From the NCBI GenBank assembly GCA_024742285.1, contig JANSYR010000004.1:310001-374000 (forward strand): a stretch of 64,000 bases of DNA, in the 5' to 3' direction. A program made the position numbers and the translations under genes. Positions 1,138 through 59,788 of the stretch are shown here, in pieces (positions within the stretch are counted from its first letter, which is position 1; each line of letters opens with the position of its first letter). This DNA is from a bacterium. Its GTDB lineage: Bacteria > Myxococcota_A > UBA9160 > UBA4427. The notes under the pieces were generated by a model. It searched no databases. It had not been told where the DNA came from and saw only the letters and a program-made list of their open reading frames with translations.

Positions 1138-1197
1138 GAGGGGAAGTCTCGGAGTTGAGGGGGCTGCGGGTCGGACCTCGTCGCTCGGCCGTTGGCT

Positions 1198-1223
1198 CTT
1201 CGACGACGATGAAGTCGTCGAAG
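1198..1223. repeat. Perfect 10-bp inverted repeat between proB and proA
   Basis: CTTCGACGAC (1198-1207) and GTCGTCGAAG (1214-1223) pair perfectly around a 6-base loop in the 132-bp proB-proA gap. No T-run follows on either strand, so it looks like an mRNA processing or stability element, or part of proA translation control, and not a terminator. Confidence 0.6.
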
Positions 1224-1269
1224 GTTCCCCGGTGGATGAAGGGCTTGGACCTTCAGCCACGGATGAGTC

Positions 1270-2406
1270 TCAGTCGCGAACGACGACCATGTCGTCACGG
1301 TGCACGATCTCGTCGCCGTTCGAATATCCTAGCACCCGGTCGATTTCCTTCGTCGCGAGACCGGCGAGCTTCGCCACGTCTTCGGACGAGTACACCGTGA
1401 GGCCCCGGGCAATCTCGTCGCCGGTTTCGTTGACGCAACTCACCGAGTCGCCGATCTCGAACGCGCCTTCGACGCGCAGGACACCGGCAGGAAGCAGACT
1501 TCGACCGCGGTCCGCGAGGGCGCGGACCGCGCCGTCGTCGATCACGATGCGCCCCCGGGTCTTCGCCGTGTAGGCGAGCCAGTGCTTCCGACCGCGCAGG
1601 CGATTGCCGGGTGCGAAGAGCGTTCCGTGTTCCTCGCCGGCGACGAGCCGCTGGAGCACGTCCTTCGTTCGGCCATGACACAGGACGGTGGCGGCGCCCG
1701 AGCGCGCCGCGTTCTTCGCGGCCTCGAGCTTGGTGATCATTCCACCGCTGCCGAACCGCGTGCCGGCCCCGCTCGCAGCGCGCTCGATCTCGGGGGTGAT
1801 CTCTTCGACCGTCCGGATCAGCGGCGGCGCGGGTTGGCCCGGCTGCGGTGCGCGTTCGTAGAGACCTTCGACGTCGGTGAGGATCACGAGCAGGTCGGCG
1901 GCGACGGCGTTCACGATCGTCGCGGCCAGGTTGTCGTTGTCGCCGAAGCGGATTTCCTCGGTCGCGACGGTGTCGTTCTCGTTGACGATGGGCACGACGC
2001 CGATCCGCAGCAGCTCGAGCATCGTGTGCCGCGCGTTCAGGAACCGCTCGCGATCCTCGAGGCCCGCGCGCGTCAGCAGGATCTGCGCCACGTGTCGGTC
2101 GAGATTGCCGAAGCGGCGTTGGTAGAGCTCGATCAGGCCGATCTGTCCGACGGCGGCCGCCGCTTGCTTCTCGCGGACGCTGTGTCCCGTGTGCTGCCAG
2201 CCGAGGCGGTGCGCCCCGACGGCGATCGCGCCGGACGAGACGAGCACGACCTGTCGTCCGCCCTTCATCAAGGCGGCGACGTCGCGGGCGAGGGCCGTGA
2301 AGCGATCCGGTTGGAGCTGGCCGTCGCGGGTGAGCGAGCTCGTTCCGACCTTCACGACGATCCGCTTCGCGCGCGGAACGAGATCCCAGGCGTTCGATTC
2401 CGTCAT
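1270..2406 (-). CDS. proB: Glutamate 5-kinase with PUA domain
   Basis: ATP-dependent phosphorylation of glutamate, the first and usually proline-inhibited step of proline synthesis. The 378 residues comprise an amino-acid kinase domain (start KRIVVKVGTSSLT; LVSSGAIAVG; NENDTVATEEIRFGDND; later LLVILTDVEGLY and FGSGGMITKLEAAK) and a C-terminal PUA domain from about residue 278. That is the full E. coli-like architecture. Its ATG overlaps the obgE stop as ATGA (2403-2406), so translation is coupled to obgE. The obgE-proB-proA order is conserved in many deltaproteobacteria. Confidence 0.97.
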   Translation of the reverse strand: MTESNAWDLVPRAKRIVVKVGTSSLTRDGQLQPDRFTALARDVAALMKGGRQVVLVSSGAIAVGAHRLGWQHTGHSVREKQAAAAVGQIGLIELYQRRFGNLDRHVAQILLTRAGLEDRERFLNARHTMLELLRIGVVPIVNENDTVATEEIRFGDNDNLAATIVNAVAADLLVILTDVEGLYERAPQPGQPAPPLIRTVEEITPEIERAASGAGTRFGSGGMITKLEAAKNAARSGAATVLCHGRTKDVLQRLVAGEEHGTLFAPGNRLRGRKHWLAYTAKTRGRIVIDDGAVRALADRGRSLLPAGVLRVEGAFEIGDSVSCVNETGDEIARGLTVYSSEDVAKLAGLATKEIDRVLGYSNGDEIVHRDDMVVVRD

Positions 2407-4460: not shown

Positions 4461-6666
4461 ATTCGGAGCGCGGGAGTATGCTGGATTCCTCTTCCGCGTC
4501 AACAGTTTGGACCGCTTCTGCCGCTTCGCCGGTCGAGACCGGGGCGGATGCCCCGAGGGGCTTCTTCGGCGCCTCGATCGCGTCGTCGGCGGATTCCTCG
4601 CTCCCATCCGCCTCGGCGTCGGCCGCCATCGCGGGCTCTTGGTTCTCCTCGGCTTCGACAGGGGCGGCCGCCTCGGTGGTGTCGGTGGACTCGGCCCCCC
4701 CGGCTCCGCTTGCGGCGTCCGCTTCGGCATCGAGCCGCTCGTAGATCGCCGCCGCGGAGGCCTGGTCGTCCGGCTCGTCTTCGCCTTTGCCTTCGCCTTC
4801 GTCGTCGTCTTCGTCGAGGGAGAGGCGGAGGGGGCCATCCGGCTTCCCGACGCGCGCCTGGATGTCGAGCCGCGCCGGTCCATCGTCTTCGTCCGCACCG
4901 TTCACCAGCGCGCCCTCGCTCTCGGCCACCGACCCCGCGGCGACGAGGGCCTCGCCGGCCGCGGCGGGCATCTCTTCGCTGGCCGGAGCCTCCTCGCCTT
5001 CGGGCGCGGCTCCGTTGCCGCCGCGTCCGCGACCGCGTCCGCCGCGCCGGCGTCCGCGCTTCGAGCCGCCCTCGCCCGCCTCCTGCTTCTCCTTCGCCTT
5101 TCGGGCGTCGGGATGGGTGTCGTTCAGCCAGCTGAGCTCGATCTCCGCCGGCGGTCCGGCTTCGAGCACCATCAGCTCGTACTGTTCCTGGTGCATGCCC
5201 GGTCGCGCGCGGACTTCGATGTCCTTGCCGATCGCCTCGGAGAGCTCGGCGAGCGCCGCCTTCGACTTCGACAGCAGCTCCTCGGCCACGTGCGGGTTGA
5301 CCGCGACCGCGATCGATCGCCCGCGCAGCTTCGGCATGTGCTTGCGGATCTCGCGCAGGACGCGGAAGCCGACACTCTCCCGCGACAGGACGTAGCTCCG
5401 GCCTTCGCAGTAGCTGCACGGCTCGCAGAGCGTCTGCACGAGGTTCTCGCGCGTCCGCTTGCGTGTCATCTCGACGAGGCCGAGCTCGGAGATCTTGAGG
5501 ATGTTGGTCCGCGCCTTGTCCGCGCGGAGCGCCTCCTGGAACGCGCGATAGACCTTCTCGCGGTTTCCCGCGCTCTCCATGTCGATCAGGTCGACGATGA
5601 TCAGCCCGCCGAGATTTCGGAAGCGCAGCTGGTGCACGACCTCCTGGACCGCCTCGAGGTTCGTCTTCAGGACCGTCTCTTCGAGATCGCGCTTGCCGAC
5701 GAAGCGGCCGGTGTTCACGTCGATGGCGGTGAGTGCCTCACTCTTGTCGATGACCAGGGACCCGCCGCTCTTGAGCCAGACCTTGCGCTCGAGGTTGGCG
5801 TGGATCTGTTGTTCGAGATCGAAGCGCTCGAAGATCGGCAGCCCTTCGTCGTAGTGGACGACCTCGGGCTTCGGGTCGGCGACGAAGCGGTCGACGAAGC
5901 TCTGGATGTGTTCGTAGAGCTCCTTGTCGTCGGACACGATCCGCTTGGTGTCGTGTCCCGCGAGATCGCGGACGACGCGAAGCGGCAGATCGTGCTCGGA
6001 GTAGAGCATCGCTGGCGCGCTCGTCTCGCCATGGCGATGCTGGATCGCGGCCCAGACCGTCGCGAGGTACCGGATGTCGGCTTCGAGGTCCGCTTCGGTC
6101 ACGCCGTCGCCGGCGGTCCGGATGATGAAGCCGAGGTTCTTGGGACGCAGGCGCTCGACGATCTCGCGCAGTCGCCTTCGTTCATTGTCCGAGCCGATCC
6201 GGCGGGAGACGCCGACGCGGCGGGACCAGGGGGTCAGGACGAGGTGACGTCCCGGGATCGAGATGCTCGAGGTGATGCGAGCGCCCTTGGTCCCGATCGG
6301 CTCCTTGGCGATCTGGACGATGATCTCCTTGCCCTCGTGGAGGACGGTGTCGATCTTCGGCGGCGCATTGCGACCGCGGCCGCGGCCCTTCCGTCCCTTC
6401 GACGTCGGTTCGCCGTCGGTCTCGCCGGTTTCGAGGGTCGACTCGAAGTAGTCGCCGACGTAGAGGAACGCGGCCTTCTCGAGGCCGATGTCGACGAAGG
6501 CGGCCTGCATGCCCGGAAGGACCCGGCTGACCTTTCCTTTCACGACGTTGCCGACGACGCTCTTGTCGCGCTCTCGTTCGATGTGCAGCTCGGCGAACTG
6601 CTTGTCTTCCAGTAACGCGACCCGGGTCTCTCCGAGCTCCGCGTTGATGATGATCTCGTTCTGCAT
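4459..6666 (-). CDS. rng: Ribonuclease E/G family endoribonuclease
   Basis: 5'-end-sensing endoribonuclease for rRNA maturation and mRNA decay. The ATG at 6666 yields MQNEIIINAELGETRVALLE, the family start, preceded by AGGCGGA; 735 residues. Order: S1 domain with KGKVSRVLPGMQAAFVDIG, the RNase catalytic core with AIDVNTGR and IIVDLIDM (the two metal-binding aspartates), and the zinc link CEPCSYC. A tail of about 200 residues (from about 530) is rich in Arg-Gly and then Glu/Ala, resembling a short RNase E scaffold arm. Lies first in the rng-rplU-rpmA-obgE order; autoregulation through its 5' leader is known for RNase E but only inferred here. Confidence 0.93.
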   Translation of the reverse strand: MQNEIIINAELGETRVALLEDKQFAELHIERERDKSVVGNVVKGKVSRVLPGMQAAFVDIGLEKAAFLYVGDYFESTLETGETDGEPTSKGRKGRGRGRNAPPKIDTVLHEGKEIIVQIAKEPIGTKGARITSSISIPGRHLVLTPWSRRVGVSRRIGSDNERRRLREIVERLRPKNLGFIIRTAGDGVTEADLEADIRYLATVWAAIQHRHGETSAPAMLYSEHDLPLRVVRDLAGHDTKRIVSDDKELYEHIQSFVDRFVADPKPEVVHYDEGLPIFERFDLEQQIHANLERKVWLKSGGSLVIDKSEALTAIDVNTGRFVGKRDLEETVLKTNLEAVQEVVHQLRFRNLGGLIIVDLIDMESAGNREKVYRAFQEALRADKARTNILKISELGLVEMTRKRTRENLVQTLCEPCSYCEGRSYVLSRESVGFRVLREIRKHMPKLRGRSIAVAVNPHVAEELLSKSKAALAELSEAIGKDIEVRARPGMHQEQYELMVLEAGPPAEIELSWLNDTHPDARKAKEKQEAGEGGSKRGRRRGGRGRGRGGNGAAPEGEEAPASEEMPAAAGEALVAAGSVAESEGALVNGADEDDGPARLDIQARVGKPDGPLRLSLDEDDDEGEGKGEDEPDDQASAAAIYERLDAEADAASGAGGAESTDTTEAAAPVEAEENQEPAMAADAEADGSEESADDAIEAPKKPLGASAPVSTGEAAEAVQTVDAEEESSILPRSE

Positions 6667-7568
6667 CGTTCCGCCTGAGGCGGCGATCGTGTCTGCCTGG
6701 GCCGCGGCCTTGGGTCGCGGACGAGCGAGACCGATCCGGTCCGCCTTGTTCCGGCGAGTCCGATCGATTCGATCTTCGATGTCGTGAGAAGGTCGCTGGC
6801 TGGCCATCGATCCCGGCGCGGCGGCCTCCAGAACGAGGGAGGGGCGACCGGGGGATGGTGGGTGCTGCTGTCGGGCCTCGAAGAGGCGCGTGGACTCGAG
6901 TCGCGATCGGTCGTGCGGGACCGGTCGCGCGGACGTCGACTTTCTACTCCTCCTCGGGTCGCCGGCCCGGAATCAGGGTTCCGAGGGTCCGGTGGCGCTG
7001 GTGGTCGACGGGTTTGATCAAATCGATGACTCGCACTGTGTTTTCTGAGTCTCGTTCGAGGGCCGGTCGTGGTCCCGGCCCGTCCTGGTTCTGATTGCGG
7101 GGGCGAAGGCCTCCGCGGTGTTGGGTCGTTGCGGTTGCGGCCGAACCAGTCGGTTCATCGTGGATTGGCTCGGGGAGATCTCGAGTCGGTTGCAGCAGCA
7201 CCCTGCCACGTCCGTATCCCCCGGGTGATCGGAATCGACTTCGCTGGGTCGGCGCCGGCCTCGCGGGGCGATGGCGGGCGCTGCTACCACTTGGGCGTTG
7301 CCGACCCGATTTCCGGGGGCACGCTCAGGGCGGGTCTTCGAACTCCATCCATCAGGCATCCGGTCGATCAGATGATCAGATGGCAAGATGAATGGGCGAC
7401 GGGTGGGGTCGGGCGATCCTTGGTTTGAGTAAGCGGCAGTCCCATCGGGTCGTCCGAAGGAGATCACCGCGCTTCGACCCCGGATCCCGGTCGCTGAGGT
7501 CTCGTTCCACCAGCGATTTCGATCCAGAACACGAACCGGTCTGGCCGTGTGAATACGGGATTGAGAGT
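6667..7568. other. Long intergenic region between rng and selA, no gene seen
   Basis: About 900 bp between divergent rng and selA. Open frames here have Arg/Pro-rich, shadow-like translations and no family match. Visible structure: a 7-bp stem GGGCCGG/CCGGCCC (7060-7081), the palindrome TTTGATCAAA (7013-7022) and a doubled GATCAGAT near 7366-7381. No tRNA, tmRNA, RNase P or SRP RNA core motif was found. It presumably holds both promoters and a long rng leader. Confidence 0.5.
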
Positions 7569-9005
7569 ATGGGTTCGCAGCAAAAGATCAACTCGGATCC
7601 CCGCCGGAATCTACCCTCCGTAGATCGTCTGATCGGACAGGTGAGGGATTCGAGCCCCGACCTTCCCGAATGGGCCGTGCTTCGCGCCGCGCGCGAGGCG
7701 CTCGACGCCATCCGAGTGGAAATTTCCGAAGAGAAATCGAGTTTTCGAGGAGAGCGCGCGGACATCGCCGCGCTGGAGCGCGACGTCGCCGACAGAGCGG
7801 CTCGGCTCGCCTCGCCGCACCCGCGACCGGTGATCAACGCGACCGGCGTGGTCCTCCACACGAATCTCGGTCGGGCACCGCTCGCACCGGCGGCGGCCGA
7901 GGCGGTCGCGCGCGCCCTCGACGGATACTCGAACCTGGAGCTCGACCTCGAGACGGGTCGCCGCGGCTCGCGAATGGGCTCGCTCGAAGCGAAGCTGCTC
8001 GCGCTCTCCGGAGCGGAGGCGGCCCACGTGGTGAACAACTGCGCGGCGGCGGTCCTGCTCGCGCTCAATACGCTCGCCCTGGGGCGCGACGTCGTGGTGT
8101 CCCGTGGTGAGCTGGTCGAGATCGGCGGCTCGTTCCGGGTGCCTGCGATCATGGAGCGCGCCGGCGTCCGCCTCGCGGAAGTCGGGACGACGAACCGGAC
8201 CCACCTCGCCGACTACGAAGCGGCGATCGGTCCCGAGACCGCGCTCCTGCTCAAGGTCCACCGCAGCAACTTCGAGCAGCGCGGCTTCGTCGCCGAGGCC
8301 GACATCGCCGAGATCGCCCGCGTCGCCCACGATCACGGTCTCCCGTTCATGGAGGATCTCGGGAGTGCGACGCTCCTCGACCTCTCGTCCGAGGGACTGC
8401 CCTCGGAGGCGTTCGCACCGGGTCGACTCGCCCTCGGGATCGACGTCCTCTGCTTCAGCGGCGACAAGCTGCTGGGGGGGCCGCAGGCCGGCATCCTGCT
8501 CGGGAAGCGCCAGTACGTCGACGCCATGAAGAAGAACCCGCTCGCCCGGGCGCTCCGGGTCGACAAGCTCACCGTCGCGGCCCTCGACGCGACCCTCGAC
8601 CTGATGCTCGATCCCGACCGCGCGCGAGAGGTCCCGACGATCGAGGGACTGCGCGCGGACACGAAGGCGCTCGAGCCGCGCGCCGCCCGACTCCAGCAGA
8701 TCGTGTCCGGCGTGATCGACGCCGTCGCTCACGAGACGCCGTGGAAGCTCCGGGTGGCGCCGACGGAAGCCGCCGTGGGCGGGGGCTCACTTCCCGAACA
8801 CCGCATCGCGGGTCTCGCGGTCGTGCTCGAGGGCGGTCCCGTCCACGCGCTCGCCGAGGGACTGCGGTCCGCCCCCGCCCCGGTGCTCGCCCGGCTTCGG
8901 GACGACGCGCTCTGGCTCGACGTGCGGACCCTGCGCGACGGCGATCTCGATCGGGTCGGGGATGCGCTCGCGTTCGCGCTGGAAGCCGGGCGCGAAGCGT
9001 CCTGA
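7569..9005 (+). CDS. selA: L-seryl-tRNA(Sec) selenium transferase
   Basis: PLP enzyme converting seryl-tRNA(Sec) to selenocysteinyl-tRNA(Sec) with selenophosphate. The ATG at 7569 gives 478 residues, close to E. coli SelA (463). Typical blocks: RPVINATGVVLHTNLGRAPL, GYSNLELDLETGRRGSR, EDLGSATLLDL, and CFSGDKLLGGPQAGI, in which Lys300 is the expected PLP lysine. selB, selC and selD are not in the window. A gene with an in-frame TGA at the expected Cys position lies 11 kb away (19981-20460), consistent with working Sec decoding. Confidence 0.97.
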   Translation: MGSQQKINSDPRRNLPSVDRLIGQVRDSSPDLPEWAVLRAAREALDAIRVEISEEKSSFRGERADIAALERDVADRAARLASPHPRPVINATGVVLHTNLGRAPLAPAAAEAVARALDGYSNLELDLETGRRGSRMGSLEAKLLALSGAEAAHVVNNCAAAVLLALNTLALGRDVVVSRGELVEIGGSFRVPAIMERAGVRLAEVGTTNRTHLADYEAAIGPETALLLKVHRSNFEQRGFVAEADIAEIARVAHDHGLPFMEDLGSATLLDLSSEGLPSEAFAPGRLALGIDVLCFSGDKLLGGPQAGILLGKRQYVDAMKKNPLARALRVDKLTVAALDATLDLMLDPDRAREVPTIEGLRADTKALEPRAARLQQIVSGVIDAVAHETPWKLRVAPTEAAVGGGSLPEHRIAGLAVVLEGGPVHALAEGLRSAPAPVLARLRDDALWLDVRTLRDGDLDRVGDALAFALEAGREAS

Positions 9006-9092: not shown

Positions 9093-9218
9093 CGCGTCTA
9101 CCCCCCGAAAGCCCTGAAAGGGTTCCTCGTCCAACGAGGACTTCCCTGAGCTTCGTGCCTTCGATCGGTCCTTCGCAAGGAACGGCGTCGATCGGAGAGC
9201 GGAGCAAGAGAGGCGAAC

Positions 9219-10244
9219 GTGAGCTCGACGACCGGCGTTCCGCGCCCTCCGTCTGCATCCGGGGATTCCGCGACCGATCGAAGCGGGGGCGCGCGCCTGC
9301 TCGCCATCGGCGGCGGCAAGGGCGGCGTCGGCAAGACGTTCGTGACCGCCAATCTGGCGACGGCGCTCGCCCGCCTCGGCAAGCGGGTCGTCGTCGTCGA
9401 CGTCGACCTCGAAGGCGCGAACCTCCACACCACCCTCGGTGTGCAGACGCCGCAGCGAAGCCTCGCCGACTTCGTCTCCGAACGCGAAGAAGATCTGGGG
9501 AAGCTGCTCGTCGACACGCCGCTCCCGAATCTGCGATTGATCGCGGCGACGAACGGCAACCTCGCCGACGCACAGCCGAGTCACCTGCGTCGCGTTCGCC
9601 TGCTGCGCGGCCTGCGTCAGCTCGACGCCGACATCGTGCTGCTCGACCTCGGTGCCGGCTCCCACGCTTCGGTGCTCGACTACTTCCTGGTCTCCGACGA
9701 CGGGATCCTGGTGCTGCAGCCCGAGCCGACTTCCGTCGAGAACGCCTACACGTTTCTGCGCGCCGCGTTCTACCGGCGCATGCGACTCGCGATGGTCGGG
9801 CACGGCGTGCGGCAGCTCGTCACGATGGCGATGGACCAGCGCAACGAGCGCGGGATCCGGACGCCGCTCGACCTGCTTCGCGAGATCGAAGCGACGGATA
9901 CCGCGGAGGCGCGGCGCTTCGTCGAGACGATGCGCGTCTTCCGTCCGCGCCTGATCGTGAACGGGGTGCGAACCGCCGAGGACGTGAAGCTCGGCTTCGC
10001 GGTCTCGAGCGTGTGCAAGAAGTACTTCGGCGTCGAAGCCGAGTACATCGGATACGTGAACTACGACGACGAGGCGCGACAGTCGGTCTCGGCGCGTCGA
10101 CCGATCGTGGACCTGCGGCAGGACGCCGACGTCTCGATCTATCTCCAGCGGATCGCCCGCAAGCTCCTGGGTCTCCCCTCGACCTCCGGTGCTGCGGCGA
10201 CACCGTCTGCTGGAGCCGAAACCCACGCTGGAGGGAATCGATGA
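9219..10244 (+). CDS. MinD/ParA-family P-loop ATPase
   Basis: Deviant Walker A ATPase of the MinD/FlhG/Mrp type: AIGGGKGGVGKTFVTANLATAL near residue 30, VVVDVDLEGANLHTTLG, and Walker B-like DIVLLDLGAG. 341 residues, with a GTG start preceded by GAGAGG. Family members position machinery at the pole or midcell, or count flagella; no flagellar genes are near, so the cargo is unknown. Its stop overlaps the start of the J-domain/HTH gene (ATGA, 10241-10244), so the two proteins are made together. Known delta-proteobacterial neighbourhoods also pair such an ATPase with an HTH protein, as far as can be recalled. Confidence 0.85.
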   Translation: MSSTTGVPRPPSASGDSATDRSGGARLLAIGGGKGGVGKTFVTANLATALARLGKRVVVVDVDLEGANLHTTLGVQTPQRSLADFVSEREEDLGKLLVDTPLPNLRLIAATNGNLADAQPSHLRRVRLLRGLRQLDADIVLLDLGAGSHASVLDYFLVSDDGILVLQPEPTSVENAYTFLRAAFYRRMRLAMVGHGVRQLVTMAMDQRNERGIRTPLDLLREIEATDTAEARRFVETMRVFRPRLIVNGVRTAEDVKLGFAVSSVCKKYFGVEAEYIGYVNYDDEARQSVSARRPIVDLRQDADVSIYLQRIARKLLGLPSTSGAAATPSAGAETHAGGNR

Positions 10245-10924
10245 GGGGGATCGACGAGCTCGATCACTACGAGCTTCTGGAAGTCGGCCGCGCCGCTTCC
10301 ACCGCGGAGATCGACCGCGCGTACCGGAACGCTCAGAATACCTATCAGGACGGATCGCTCGCGCTCTACTCGGTCTTCGATCGACTCGACGCCGCGGCGA
10401 TCCGCGAGCGCCTCGACGAGGCCTACCGCGTGCTCGCCGACGCGGACCTGCGTACCGAGTACGACGAAGCGCTGCCCTCGGCGGTGGGACGAAGCGGCGC
10501 ACCGGATCCGCGGCCCGAGGCGATGGCCGACGAGACCGACGCCGCGGTGTCGACCAGATCGCTCGAGGGCTTCGATCCCGCGGAGCAGCTCGATGCCGTC
10601 GATCAGGCCGTCGAGGAATTCGACGCGCTGGAAGACGACGGCGGCGGGGAGTTCGACGGCGTGCGCTTGCGCCGCAACCGTCTCTTCCGCGGCTACGAGA
10701 TCGACGACATCTCGGACGTGACGAAAGTGAGCCCGGCCCACCTCCGGAACATCGAGGAAGAGAATTTCCTGGATCTTCCGGCGGACGTGTACGTGCGTGG
10801 CTTCGTGACCGCCTACGCGCAGACGATCGGGCTCGACCCGAAGATCGTCGTGCCGAGCTACATGGCGCGGGTCCAGGAATCCCGGAGCGAGCAGCAGCGG
10901 GGCCGCTTCCTCGCCCGACGTTAG
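10241..10924 (+). CDS. Degenerate J-domain fused to RodZ-type helix-turn-helix
   Basis: 227 residues. The N-terminus (ELDHYELLEVGRAASTAEI) has the DnaJ J-domain helix I/II pattern and the later AYRVLADADLRTEYD matches J-domain helices III-IV. The HPD signature needed to stimulate Hsp70 is absent (the loop reads YQDGS). After an acidic linker, residues about 145-215 form a RodZ/HTH_25-type domain: RGYEIDDISDVTKVSPAHL, IEEENFLDLP, and VYVRGFVTAYAQTIGLDP. No transmembrane segment is seen, unlike RodZ. Coupled to the preceding ATPase and 8 bp before rluD. Likely a partner or adaptor of the ATPase; function unproven. Confidence 0.8.
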   Translation: MRGIDELDHYELLEVGRAASTAEIDRAYRNAQNTYQDGSLALYSVFDRLDAAAIRERLDEAYRVLADADLRTEYDEALPSAVGRSGAPDPRPEAMADETDAAVSTRSLEGFDPAEQLDAVDQAVEEFDALEDDGGGEFDGVRLRRNRLFRGYEIDDISDVTKVSPAHLRNIEEENFLDLPADVYVRGFVTAYAQTIGLDPKIVVPSYMARVQESRSEQQRGRFLARR

Positions 10925-10932
10925 GCCGCGCC

Positions 10933-11877
10933 ATGCCCGACGCGGCGGCGTCTCTCGCGTTCACCGTCGACGAGGCGAGCGTCGGCGCGCGGGTCGATGC
11001 GCTGCTCGCGGAGCTGTCCGGCGTCTCGCGCGCGCAGGTGAAGCGTTGGATCGACGCCGGTCGCGTGACGGTCGGCGGTGAGGTCGTGCGTCCCAGTCGC
11101 AAGGTCGCGCTCGGAGATTCGATCGAAGCGCGTCCCCTCGAGCCGGTCGAGATGGCCCTCGCGCCCGAGGCGATCCCGCTCTCGGTGCTCTTCGAGGACG
11201 AGCATCTGATCGTGGTCGACAAGCCCGCTGGCCTCGTGGTCCATCCCGCGCCCGGACATCCCGGTGGAACCCTGGTGAACGCGCTCCTGGCCCACTGCGG
11301 GGACCTCGCCGGGATCGGTGGCGTCCTGCGCCCCGGGATCGTGCATCGCCTCGATCGAGGCACCTCCGGCGTGATGGTCGCGGCGAAGGACGACGAGACC
11401 CATCAGGGGCTCGCGCGTCAGTTCGCCGAGCACACGATCGATCGTCTGTACCGAGCGCTCGTCCGGGGCGTGCCGCGGGCGGACGCGGGTCGGATCGACC
11501 GTCCGATCGGACGTCATCCGCGCGATCGCAAACGGATGTCGGTCGAGGTGAAGGTCGGCAAGGAATCGATCACGAACTGGCGGGTGCTGCGGCGCTTCCG
11601 GAGCGCCATGACGAGCGAGCTCGAGGTGAGACCCGAGACCGGACGCACGCATCAGATCCGCGTGCACCTCTCCTCCGCCGGCCTGCCCCTCGTGGGGGAC
11701 ACCGTCTACGGTCGAGCGCGCGGAAGCGACGCCCGCCTCGGCCGACCGGCCCTCCACGCGGCGCACCTGGGCTTCGAACATCCGATCAGCGGCCGCCGTC
11801 TCTTCTTCGAGACGCCGCTCCCCGACGACCTGATCGCGTGGATCGCCGATCTCGGCCCGGAGGAGGTCGTCGAATGA
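10933..11877 (+). CDS. rluD: 23S rRNA pseudouridine synthase, RluD type
   Basis: Forms pseudouridines in helix 69 of 23S rRNA. 314 residues: an N-terminal S4 domain (ARVDALLAELSGVSRAQVKRWI) and the RluA-family catalytic domain with HRLDRGTSGVMVAAK (catalytic Asp in HRLD), RPETGRTHQIRVHL and the GDTVYG block. Length and S4 domain fit RluD or RluC. Its end overlaps pgeF by ATGA. The rluD-pgeF pair is common in proteobacteria. Confidence 0.9.
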   Translation: MPDAAASLAFTVDEASVGARVDALLAELSGVSRAQVKRWIDAGRVTVGGEVVRPSRKVALGDSIEARPLEPVEMALAPEAIPLSVLFEDEHLIVVDKPAGLVVHPAPGHPGGTLVNALLAHCGDLAGIGGVLRPGIVHRLDRGTSGVMVAAKDDETHQGLARQFAEHTIDRLYRALVRGVPRADAGRIDRPIGRHPRDRKRMSVEVKVGKESITNWRVLRRFRSAMTSELEVRPETGRTHQIRVHLSSAGLPLVGDTVYGRARGSDARLGRPALHAAHLGFEHPISGRRLFFETPLPDDLIAWIADLGPEEVVE

Positions 11878-19564: not shown

Positions 19565-19960
19565 TCAGGAGGGTTCGGGGGGACCGGCTCGGAGGATGGC
19601 GAACGCCGCCGCGGCGACGGCGAGCTCGCCTGCGAGGAAGAGCCACATCCAGACGTTCGGACCGCCTTCGGTGACGATGCCGATCGTCCGGCCGCCTGCC
19701 ATGCAGAGCATCAGCACGAGAACGCCGCGGAGACCGACGCGGTGGAGCGCCGGATCGCGGGCGAGGGCCGCGAGGAGGAGCCCGACCGCGACCGTCATGC
19801 CTCCGTAGGTCGCCCGGAAATCGATCTTCGCCGCCGAGGTCTGCGGCGCCCCTTCGGTGATCGCCGTCGCGACGACTTCGGGCGCGACCACGAAGAGAAG
19901 ACCGTAGAAGAAGAAGAGGCCGGCGTTCAGCCAGACGAGGATCGGTCCGAAGGAAGGCAT
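19565..19960 (-). CDS. DUF4345-like four-span membrane protein
   Basis: 131 residues with four hydrophobic helices: WLNAGLFFFYGLLFVVAP, the GMTVAVGLLLAALA region, GVLVLMLCMAGGRTIGIV, and MWLFLAGELAVAAAAFAIL. Size, the FRATYGGMTVAVG motif and the topology fit the DUF4345 family. The ATG at 19960 is used; the long upstream in-frame extension is hydrophilic shadow sequence. Lies 20 bp after the selenoprotein gene. Confidence 0.7.
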   Translation of the reverse strand: MPSFGPILVWLNAGLFFFYGLLFVVAPEVVATAITEGAPQTSAAKIDFRATYGGMTVAVGLLLAALARDPALHRVGLRGVLVLMLCMAGGRTIGIVTEGGPNVWMWLFLAGELAVAAAAFAILRAGPPEPS

Positions 19961-19980: not shown

Positions 19981-20460
19981 TCAGCTCTTCTTCGCCCGCT
20001 GAGCGAGCATCGTCGCGAGGAAGAGGGTCTCTTCGGGATCCATCCGGCCGACCGGCGAGCTCGAGTAGGTCGAACTCATCACGCGACCCGACTGCGTCAG
20101 CAGGAACTCGCTCGGCTGGATGAAGTCCCGCTTCTCCTCCCACCATGCGCCGATGGCGTCGCCGATCTCGCGCGTGACGCCGTGGGCGACGGGGAAGCCG
20201 AGGTCGGCGGCGACCGCGGCGGCGTCCTCCTCCGCGTCGACGGTGGCGGCGAAGAGACTCACTCCGATGTCCGAGAACGCGGCACGGCGTTCTTCATATC
20301 CGGCGAGGAGCCGGCGGCAGAAGGGTCACCAGTGGCCGCGATAGAAGAGGAGGATCGCGTACGGCGTCTCGATCTGGTCGGGGAGCGTGACGCTGCCGTC
20401 GCCGACGAGGGAGAGAGTGATCGACGGGAAGGTCCCACCGAGGTCGAGCTTGTCTGCCAT
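19981..20460 (-). CDS. Peroxiredoxin-like selenoprotein (TGA decoded as Sec45)
   Basis: AhpC/TSA (redoxin)-like thiol peroxidase, 159 residues if the TGA at 20326-20328 is read as selenocysteine. The frame is open from the ATG at 20460 (MADKLDLGGTFPSITLSL) through ILLFYRGHW-U-PFCRRLLAGYEE to the TGA stop at 19981. Homologues have FYRGHWCPFC, so Sec replaces the first (peroxidatic-type) Cys while Cys48 is kept as partner. Downstream sequence remains family-like (LFAATVDAEEDAAAVAADL, GFPVAHG). A 5-bp stem-loop sits 12-26 nt after the TGA. selA is in the window. The alternative is a nonsense mutation, less likely given the exact position and conserved coding on both sides. Confidence 0.85.
20300..20328 (-). 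promoter_or_regulatory. Sec TGA codon and bSECIS-like hairpin
   Basis: The TGA occupies 20326-20328. CCGGC (20310-20314) pairs with GCCGG (20300-20304) around UCCUC, placing the apical loop about 17-21 nt after the UGA, within the normal bSECIS window. The loop lacks an obvious leading G, so SelB recognition needs testing. Confidence 0.6.
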
Positions 20461-20609
20461 CGGGTGTCTTCTCCATGCGCTGCGGACGGGGAGTCCGGTT
20501 GCGTTTCGCGACGATACCCCAGCTCGAAGCGCCCCTCGTTCCCGGCTTCGTATCGTCCGATCCTGGAAGGCCGGCTCGAGACGACGAGCCGGAAGCGGAG
20601 CGAATCCGT

Positions 20610-58700: not shown

Positions 58701-59375
58701 CTACATCTCGCGCTGCGCCAGCGCCTCCAGCGTATGGGGATACATCCCCTTCTTGAGCAAGGTCATCGCCGGATCCGCTTTCGATGCGAGCTGCGCCGCG
58801 ATCTCCATCGCGCGCGGGAGGACTTCCTCTTCGGGAACCGCGTGGTCGACGATCGACTTCGCGAGCGCGGCTTCGGCCGAGTAGCGGGTTCCGGTCACGA
58901 TCAGCTCGTGGGCGGTCTGGCGCGGGACGCGTGCCTCGATGATCGCCGTCATGCCCGGGTGGAGCGGTGATTTCATGTCGATCTCGGGCATGCACCAATA
59001 GCCGCGCCCGGTCCGCATGACCCGGAAGTCGTGGCCGAGGGAGAGCTGGGCGCCGGCACCGAAGGCGTGACCGTTGATGGCGGCGACGGTGATCGCCGGA
59101 AAGACGAGGACCCGCGCCATCAGTCCGAGGACGGCGGGGATGTACTCGCCGCGCTCCTCCTCGGTCGCCGTGCCGAGCATCCAGTCGAGGTCGAGCCCGT
59201 TCGAGTAGAACTTGCCCGTTCCGGTCGTGACCAGGGCGGCCGGATTGCCGGCTCCCTCGACCTCGTCGAGCGCCGCGTTCCACTCGGCGAGGCTCTCCGG
59301 CTGGAAGCGGTTCTCGCCGTTGTCGTAGCGGAGGACGAAGACGTCTCCCTCGCGGGTCAGGTGGACGGTTCCCAT
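58701..59375 (-). CDS. Enoyl-CoA hydratase/isomerase family protein
   Basis: 224 residues from the ATG at 59375. Crotonase fold: NRFQPESLAEWNAALDEVE, INGHAFGAGAQLSLGHDFRVM, and GRGYWCMPEIDMKSPLHPGM. The single acid in PEIDM and the HAxGAG-x-LSL-HD context resemble delta3,delta2-enoyl-CoA isomerases more than hydratases. Acts in unsaturated fatty acid beta-oxidation. Convergent with ppc. Confidence 0.82.
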   Translation of the reverse strand: MGTVHLTREGDVFVLRYDNGENRFQPESLAEWNAALDEVEGAGNPAALVTTGTGKFYSNGLDLDWMLGTATEEERGEYIPAVLGLMARVLVFPAITVAAINGHAFGAGAQLSLGHDFRVMRTGRGYWCMPEIDMKSPLHPGMTAIIEARVPRQTAHELIVTGTRYSAEAALAKSIVDHAVPEEEVLPRAMEIAAQLASKADPAMTLLKKGMYPHTLEALAQREM

Positions 59376-59419
59376 CGCTCGGTTTCGCTCCCCGTATCGG
59401 AGGGGCACCGATTCCGGGA

Positions 59420-59788
59420 TCAGCCCCCCTGCTTCATCTGTAGGCCCATCGCCTTCGCGCGGGCGTCCTCGGCCTCCGGGATCATGCCCTTCTGCATCAG
59501 GATCCGCGAGAGATTCGTATGCGACAGCGGGTCATCGGGCTCGAGCTCGACCAGCTTCTCCGCCGCTTCGACCGCGGCCTCGAGATCGCCCTTCTTGGCG
59601 AGCGCCATCGAGAGCCCGTTCCAGGCGATCGCAAGGGCGCCGTCCGCCTCGAGCGCGTCGTGGTAGCGCGCGATCGCGCCCTCGACGTCCCCCTTCACGA
59701 AGAGCGAGAAGCCCTCCTTGTAGATGGCCTTGGGGTCGAGCGTGTCGGCCGCCTCGGTGGATTCGGGGGTCTGCGTGTCGTCGGACAT
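59420..59788 (-). CDS. Small TPR protein
   Basis: 122 residues from the ATG at 59788. An acidic N-terminus, then three TPR units: IYKEGFSLFVKGDVEGAIARYHDALEADG, IAWNGLSMALAKKGDLEAAVEAAEKLVELEPDD and SHTNLSRILMQKGMIPEAEDARAKAM. No signal peptide. Protein-interaction module, partner unknown. Precedes the isomerase gene by 44 bp. Confidence 0.82.
   Translation of the reverse strand: MSDDTQTPESTEAADTLDPKAIYKEGFSLFVKGDVEGAIARYHDALEADGALAIAWNGLSMALAKKGDLEAAVEAAEKLVELEPDDPLSHTNLSRILMQKGMIPEAEDARAKAMGLQMKQGG

Follow-up and report, generated by a model that had tools for sequence, protein, structure and literature searches.

The Sargasso Sea selenoproteome includes a peroxiredoxin-like (Prx-like) class, which has distant homology to peroxiredoxins and in which a thioredoxin-like UXXC motif replaces TXXU (PMC1088965). 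These Prx-like thiol:disulfide oxidoreductase selenoproteins (pfam00578, UxxC) correspond to 'Prx-like' of the Sargasso Sea and to 'Prx-like 1' of the Global Ocean Sampling (GOS) set (PMC1088965, PMC2398784, PMC13188914). Here, we describe a gene that, judged from its sequence, belongs to this type and not to the TxxU selenocysteine (Sec) peroxiredoxins. The gene lies on the minus strand of a 64,000-nucleotide stretch of DNA from a bacterium of Myxococcota_A (GenBank assembly GCA_024742285.1, contig JANSYR010000004.1, positions 310,001 to 374,000), which we call the window and whose positions are used below. We conclude, with a probability of about 0.93, that the gene encodes a small single-domain selenoprotein of the peroxiredoxin fold with a Sec-Pro-Phe-Cys site, and that its UGA would be decoded by the genome's own SelA, SelB, SelC and SelD through downstream RNA structure.

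A TGA-interrupted gene of the AhpC-TSA family

An ATG at position 20460 of the minus strand opens a frame that closes with a TGA at 19983-19981; with one internal TGA read through, the product has 159 residues. This TGA, at 20328-20326, is codon 45 and the sole in-frame interruption, in the context FYRGHW-U-PFC. The family PF00578 (AhpC-TSA) spans the interruption, matching residues 8-128 (E=1.8e-15; 57.4 bits, with a gathering cut-off of 26). Past the TGA, the frame offers its first start at codon 67, a GTG, from which 93 codons remain. An earlier reading of the letters alone (the sequence-only reading) had described a frame broken by a single TGA, with family sequence on both flanks and a 93-codon remnant for a standard gene caller, and our results agree with it on all of these. 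Because such a fragment lacks the redox centre and no NCBIfam model scores above its cut-off for the whole protein, it is probably annotated wrongly in every genome that has it.

19981..20460, minus strand: selenoprotein coding sequence, 159 aa, Sec at residue 45 (frame, PF00578 across the TGA, orthologue alignment)
20326..20328, minus strand: in-frame UGA, almost certainly read as Sec45 (ten other orthologues keep the TGA; distant relatives have a Cys codon)
20317..20328, minus strand: redox motif U45-P-F-C48, at the N-terminal end of a predicted helix (residues 45, 46 and 48 invariant across 19 aligned sequences; AlphaFold2 helix 46-57)

Evidence for reading of the TGA as selenocysteine

Whole-genome searches across the class covered 91 genomes and yielded eight further orthologues with a TGA inside the match. 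A scan of GTDB contigs recovered two from the same genomes (L013, L014) and added two gammaproteobacterial Sec forms (L015, L016). Including the window gene, there are 11 Sec-form orthologues, all with TGA at codon 45; the other ten come from independent assemblies and are mostly 45-77% identical. The surrounding motif is FYRGHW-U-P(F/Y)C, except that L136 reads LYRGHW before the U. At the position of codon 45, outer relatives carry TGC or TGT, as the sequence-only reading had proposed in placing a Cys there. No relative was found in the viral contigs searched.

A TGA introduced by sequencing error, or by a pseudogenising nonsense mutation in a Cys or Trp gene, would likewise interrupt the frame once, and the assembly is a draft of 56 contigs. 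However, the ten other orthologues share the TGA, in place of the TGG or TGC that the sequence-only reading had named as the sign of an error in this copy. The protein is conserved on both flanks, and synonymous constraint is concentrated after the TGA. We therefore regard this explanation as extremely improbable; the independent orthologues exclude both sequencing error and a stop that arose by chance.

The synonymous constraint was measured as amino-acid-corrected synonymous divergence among six close orthologues, in 17-codon windows evaluated by column permutation. Codons +1 to +17 after the UGA have a divergence of 0.65 of expectation, the lowest of 149 windows (P=0.0026). The minimum of the scan begins exactly at codon +1, directly after the TGA, as a selenocysteine insertion sequence (SECIS) requires.

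The genome carries the complete Sec-decoding machinery, each component scoring above its curated cut-off. The sequence-only reading had noted SelA in the window, which we confirm, and had suggested looking for selB, selC and selD in the genome, where all three were found.

7392..9005, plus strand: selA open reading frame, L-seryl-tRNA(Sec) selenium transferase, homology 7605-8969 (TIGR00474, 522.6 bits, cut-off 267.9)
C1:774923-776035, same genome: selB (283.9 bits, cut-off 242)
C13:63482-63576, same genome: selC, tRNA-Sec (67.8 bits; ARAGORN tRNA-SeC, anticodon TCA)
C16:123873-124790, same genome: selD (259.4 bits)

SelB scores above its cut-off in eight of nine class genomes, the exception being G078; the nine are the eight with Sec orthologues and G026, a genome of the same genus with a fragment at a contig end. 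Both gammaproteobacterial genomes with Sec forms also have SelB over the cut-off. Of 31 related genomes, 28 score above the cut-off of the tRNA-Sec model; the weaker of these matches, near 50 bits, could be tRNA-Ser or tRNA-Leu.

The frame would also be open if UGA were a sense codon throughout the genome, read as Trp or suppressed. Against such an altered code, the gene itself terminates in TGA, tRNA-SeC with anticodon TCA is present together with selA, selB and selD, and the relatives have Cys, not Trp, at codon 45. We reject this alternative, whose probability we consider negligible. Since the gene's own stop is TGA as well, recoding must depend on context. The conservation of the TGA in orthologues, the Cys in distant relatives, the full machinery and the synonymous constraint after the TGA together make the reading of codon 45 as selenocysteine near certain.

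In a tree of the 19 sequences, a Cys form from Gammaproteobacteria (L017, located at L017 3001-3468) falls inside a supported group with the two Sec forms (95/92). No SelB above the cut-off was found in the L017 genome, a draft in which absence is weak evidence, whereas the two neighbouring Sec genomes have SelB. The sequences suggest that L017 likely reverted from Sec to Cys once the Sec trait had been lost.

Fold and active site

The AlphaFold2 model of the protein, computed from the orthologue alignment, has a predicted local distance difference test (pLDDT) score of 93.6. Its best matches among solved structures are peroxiredoxins: Bcp4 (3hjp; Z 22.1, root-mean-square deviation 1.8 over 152 residues) and human Prx4 (Z about 20.8). 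Foldseek concurs with a peroxiredoxin fold, with E values down to 3e-12. Searched by sequence, the PDB gave only weak matches, to protein disulfide isomerase and adenosine 5'-phosphosulfate (APS) reductase.

Alignment with two PrxQ-type proteins of related genomes, FYPGDGTPVCTK (L122) and FYPGDDTPVCTK (L116), puts residue 45 opposite the Thr of TxxC and residue 48 opposite the peroxidatic Cys; the Sec is therefore the N-terminal residue of a thioredoxin-like UxxC motif. The Pro of the PxxxTxxC motif is replaced by Arg41. In the model, Sec45 directly precedes helix 46-57, where the attacking residue sits in a thioredoxin CxxC.

The sequence-only reading had placed the Sec at the peroxidatic position, which the alignment contradicts. 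A true Sec-peroxiredoxin, in which the Sec is the peroxidatic residue and directly reduces H2O2 or alkyl hydroperoxides, would be in keeping with the peroxiredoxin fold (Z up to 22) and with membership in PF00578. A Sec selenolate can in principle attack peroxides, by general chemistry. However, residue 45 falls in the Thr column, residue 48 in the peroxidatic Cys column, and Arg41 in place of the motif Pro. The published classification also sets UxxC Prx-like proteins apart from TxxU peroxiredoxins (PMC1088965). We consider a true Sec-peroxiredoxin unlikely, while noting as a point against our preferred reading that the modelled fold is compatible with peroxidase activity too.

For the preferred UxxC oxidoreductase, we propose the following sequence of events. 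SelA, SelB, SelC and SelD of the genome would decode UGA codon 45, with RNA structure in the next 17 codons as the guide. The selenolate of Sec45 would then attack a disulfide or a small oxidant, Cys48 would resolve Sec45 as an Se-S bond, and the thioredoxin system would re-reduce that bond. By analogy with described relatives, the overall reaction would be that of a thiol:disulfide oxidoreductase.

Two candidate hairpins downstream of the UGA

Two hairpins follow the UGA.

20300..20314, minus strand: proximal hairpin, nt 12-26 after the UGA, CCGGC-UCCUC-GCCGG, 5 bp, 5-nt loop
20274..20293, minus strand: distal hairpin, nt 33-52 after the UGA, AGAACGC-CGUGCC-GCGUUCU, 7 bp, 6-nt loop, with G41-U42 in the loop

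The bacterial SECIS (bSECIS) model specifies a loop of 3-9 nt, a stem of 4-16 bp, a G in the first two loop positions, a spacing of 16-37 nt and a minimum free energy of at most -7.5 kcal/mol, and a subset of bSECIS elements departs from it (PMC13188914). Both hairpins fit in loop and stem size. The proximal hairpin is the one that the sequence-only reading had reported; it exists, but its loop UCCUC is without the G in the genus of the window gene, and the distal hairpin is better supported.

The region of the distal hairpin (codons 11-17) has a synonymous ratio of 0.47 (P=0.0056), and that of the proximal hairpin (codons 1-10) a ratio of 0.76 (P=0.07). The distal stem is fully paired in all six close orthologues; in L013, both sides have changed, from A36-U49 to G36-C49. 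In the distal block, 11 of the 12 Glu codons are GAA; in the rest of these genes, 12 of 51 are. The Arg codon of the distal loop is CGT in five of the six and CGG in the sixth, with CGT used in 1 of 48 cases elsewhere; it is these two codons that yield the bSECIS pattern, a G in the loop with U or G after it. None of these codon counts is phylogenetically independent.

From these sequence comparisons we consider, with modest confidence, the distal hairpin to be the most likely SECIS, or SelB-binding loop, in the genus. Distant orthologues have the proximal hairpin only, and L131, L013 and L133, in which both hairpins carry a loop G, look like dual-signal intermediates. Tentatively, and at somewhat below even odds, we suggest that the SECIS has been displaced in the genus: the ancestral proximal hairpin would have lost its SelB-contact G, and the distal hairpin would now direct Sec insertion.

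Alternatively, the proximal hairpin is the SECIS and the distal codon constraint has another cause. Its position and loop size fit the model, and the loop G is present in most orthologues outside the genus (UGCUC, UGUUA, AGUUG) and in paralogous selenoprotein genes (AGUUG). The weaker synonymous constraint over the proximal hairpin argues against this explanation, which we consider possible but lean away from.

Several results temper the case for an RNA signal of the kind we favour. Hairpin enumeration in the window gene gave none at or below -7.5 kcal/mol with both a loop G and a spacing of 16-37 nt, as the proximal hairpin fails on the loop G and the distal one on spacing (39 nt, with a limit of 37). 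The bSECIS prediction called for by the sequence-only reading thus succeeds in loop and stem sizes but does not find the G and the spacing in one hairpin. A single hairpin satisfies all conditions in L013, L131, L133 and L134, and in most paralogous selenoprotein genes. The folding energy of the post-UGA region is not lower than that of synonymous recodings (P=0.5, single sequence) and, taken alone, lends no support. The peak at the UGA is specific to the 17-codon window: in a 7-codon scan the distal hairpin ranks fourth, and of the three windows ahead of it two are at the 3' end, which is poorly filled, and one is near codon +73. Pairing of nt 33-36 with nt 4-7 (UUCU) could instead account for some of the GAA constraint.

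Should the distal hairpin be the SECIS, genes of this kind would escape finders that enforce a spacing of 16-37 nt, and the orthologue series gives a plausible route for a shift of the SECIS within coding sequence.

Related TGA-containing genes and gene neighbourhood

The same genome contains a second Prx-like UxxC selenoprotein gene, with the motif FFRGHWUPYC (L139 about 5130-5400, minus strand; G000:C1 near 777673-777813). Its SECIS is canonical, with the loop AGUUG and a spacing of 16, and the gene is convergent with selB (C1:774923-776035). In G027:C60 and G022:C88, too, no more than about 2 kb separates selB from TGA hits. The association between selB and a selenoprotein gene may be functional. 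The genome has yet another TGA gene of the UxxC Prx-like type, its third, FYRSAVWUPPC (L138 about 1180-1377, plus strand; G000:C1 near 59137-59592), with a classical bSECIS with the loop GGU and a spacing of 21. In L131 (G070:C17:100174-103644), a TGA-containing Prx-like gene, FYRGFWUPPC, shares a 3.5-kb stretch with the orthologue of the window gene. A crude scan of the window for TGA-interrupted frames with coding-like GC content at third codon positions (GC3) gave no convincing candidate for a second Sec gene.

20471..20474, minus strand: GGAG, Shine-Dalgarno-like, 10 nt before the ATG (GGAG before the ATG in most orthologues too)
19565..19960, minus strand: DUF4345 gene (PF14248, E=1.2e-15), starting 20 nt downstream of the selenoprotein stop

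The DUF4345 gene and the selenoprotein gene possibly form one co-transcribed operon. Matches to the flanks were not found at the orthologue loci, and the DUF4345 neighbour was not seen there. Downstream of selA, the window encodes an RluA-family pseudouridine synthase and a protein with DnaJ-like and RodZ-like segments (10189-11877 and 9155-10924, plus strand). The selB gene is not adjacent to selA in the genome.

Comparison with known systems

To a lineage in which tRNA-Sec is widespread, and for which our literature search turned up no paper, the gene contributes a conserved UxxC selenoprotein. The protein type itself is known, and the displaced SECIS, if correctly identified, is the only mildly novel point. 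Like described Prx-like UxxC selenoproteins, the window protein exceeds the PF00578 cut-off, has UxxC in place of TxxC/U with the UGA as its first residue, has Cys homologues and comes from a genome with bacterial Sec machinery. The orthologue group of the window protein is a small and distinct one, with the FYRGHWUPFC motif, a C-terminal QPSEF...SPVGR and, in the genus, an apparently displaced SECIS loop.

The Sec-peroxiredoxin PrxU (TxxU; NF040737) shares the fold and superfamily. However, PrxU has its Sec at the peroxidatic position of PxxxTxxU, whereas the window protein has Cys at that position and its Sec three residues earlier, at that of the Thr, and scores 13.4 against a cut-off of 270. 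The SelL-related redox protein (NF040769) is the nearest NCBIfam model by score and the best neighbour by members matched; the similarity is weak, covers residues 11-84 and reaches 22.1 bits of the required 120. The bacterial SECIS consensus is resembled by the short stem-loops directly after the UGA and by the distal loop, which matches G[G|U]. It differs from the arrangement described here, in which the G-bearing loop is 39 nt from the UGA and the hairpin within range is without the G.
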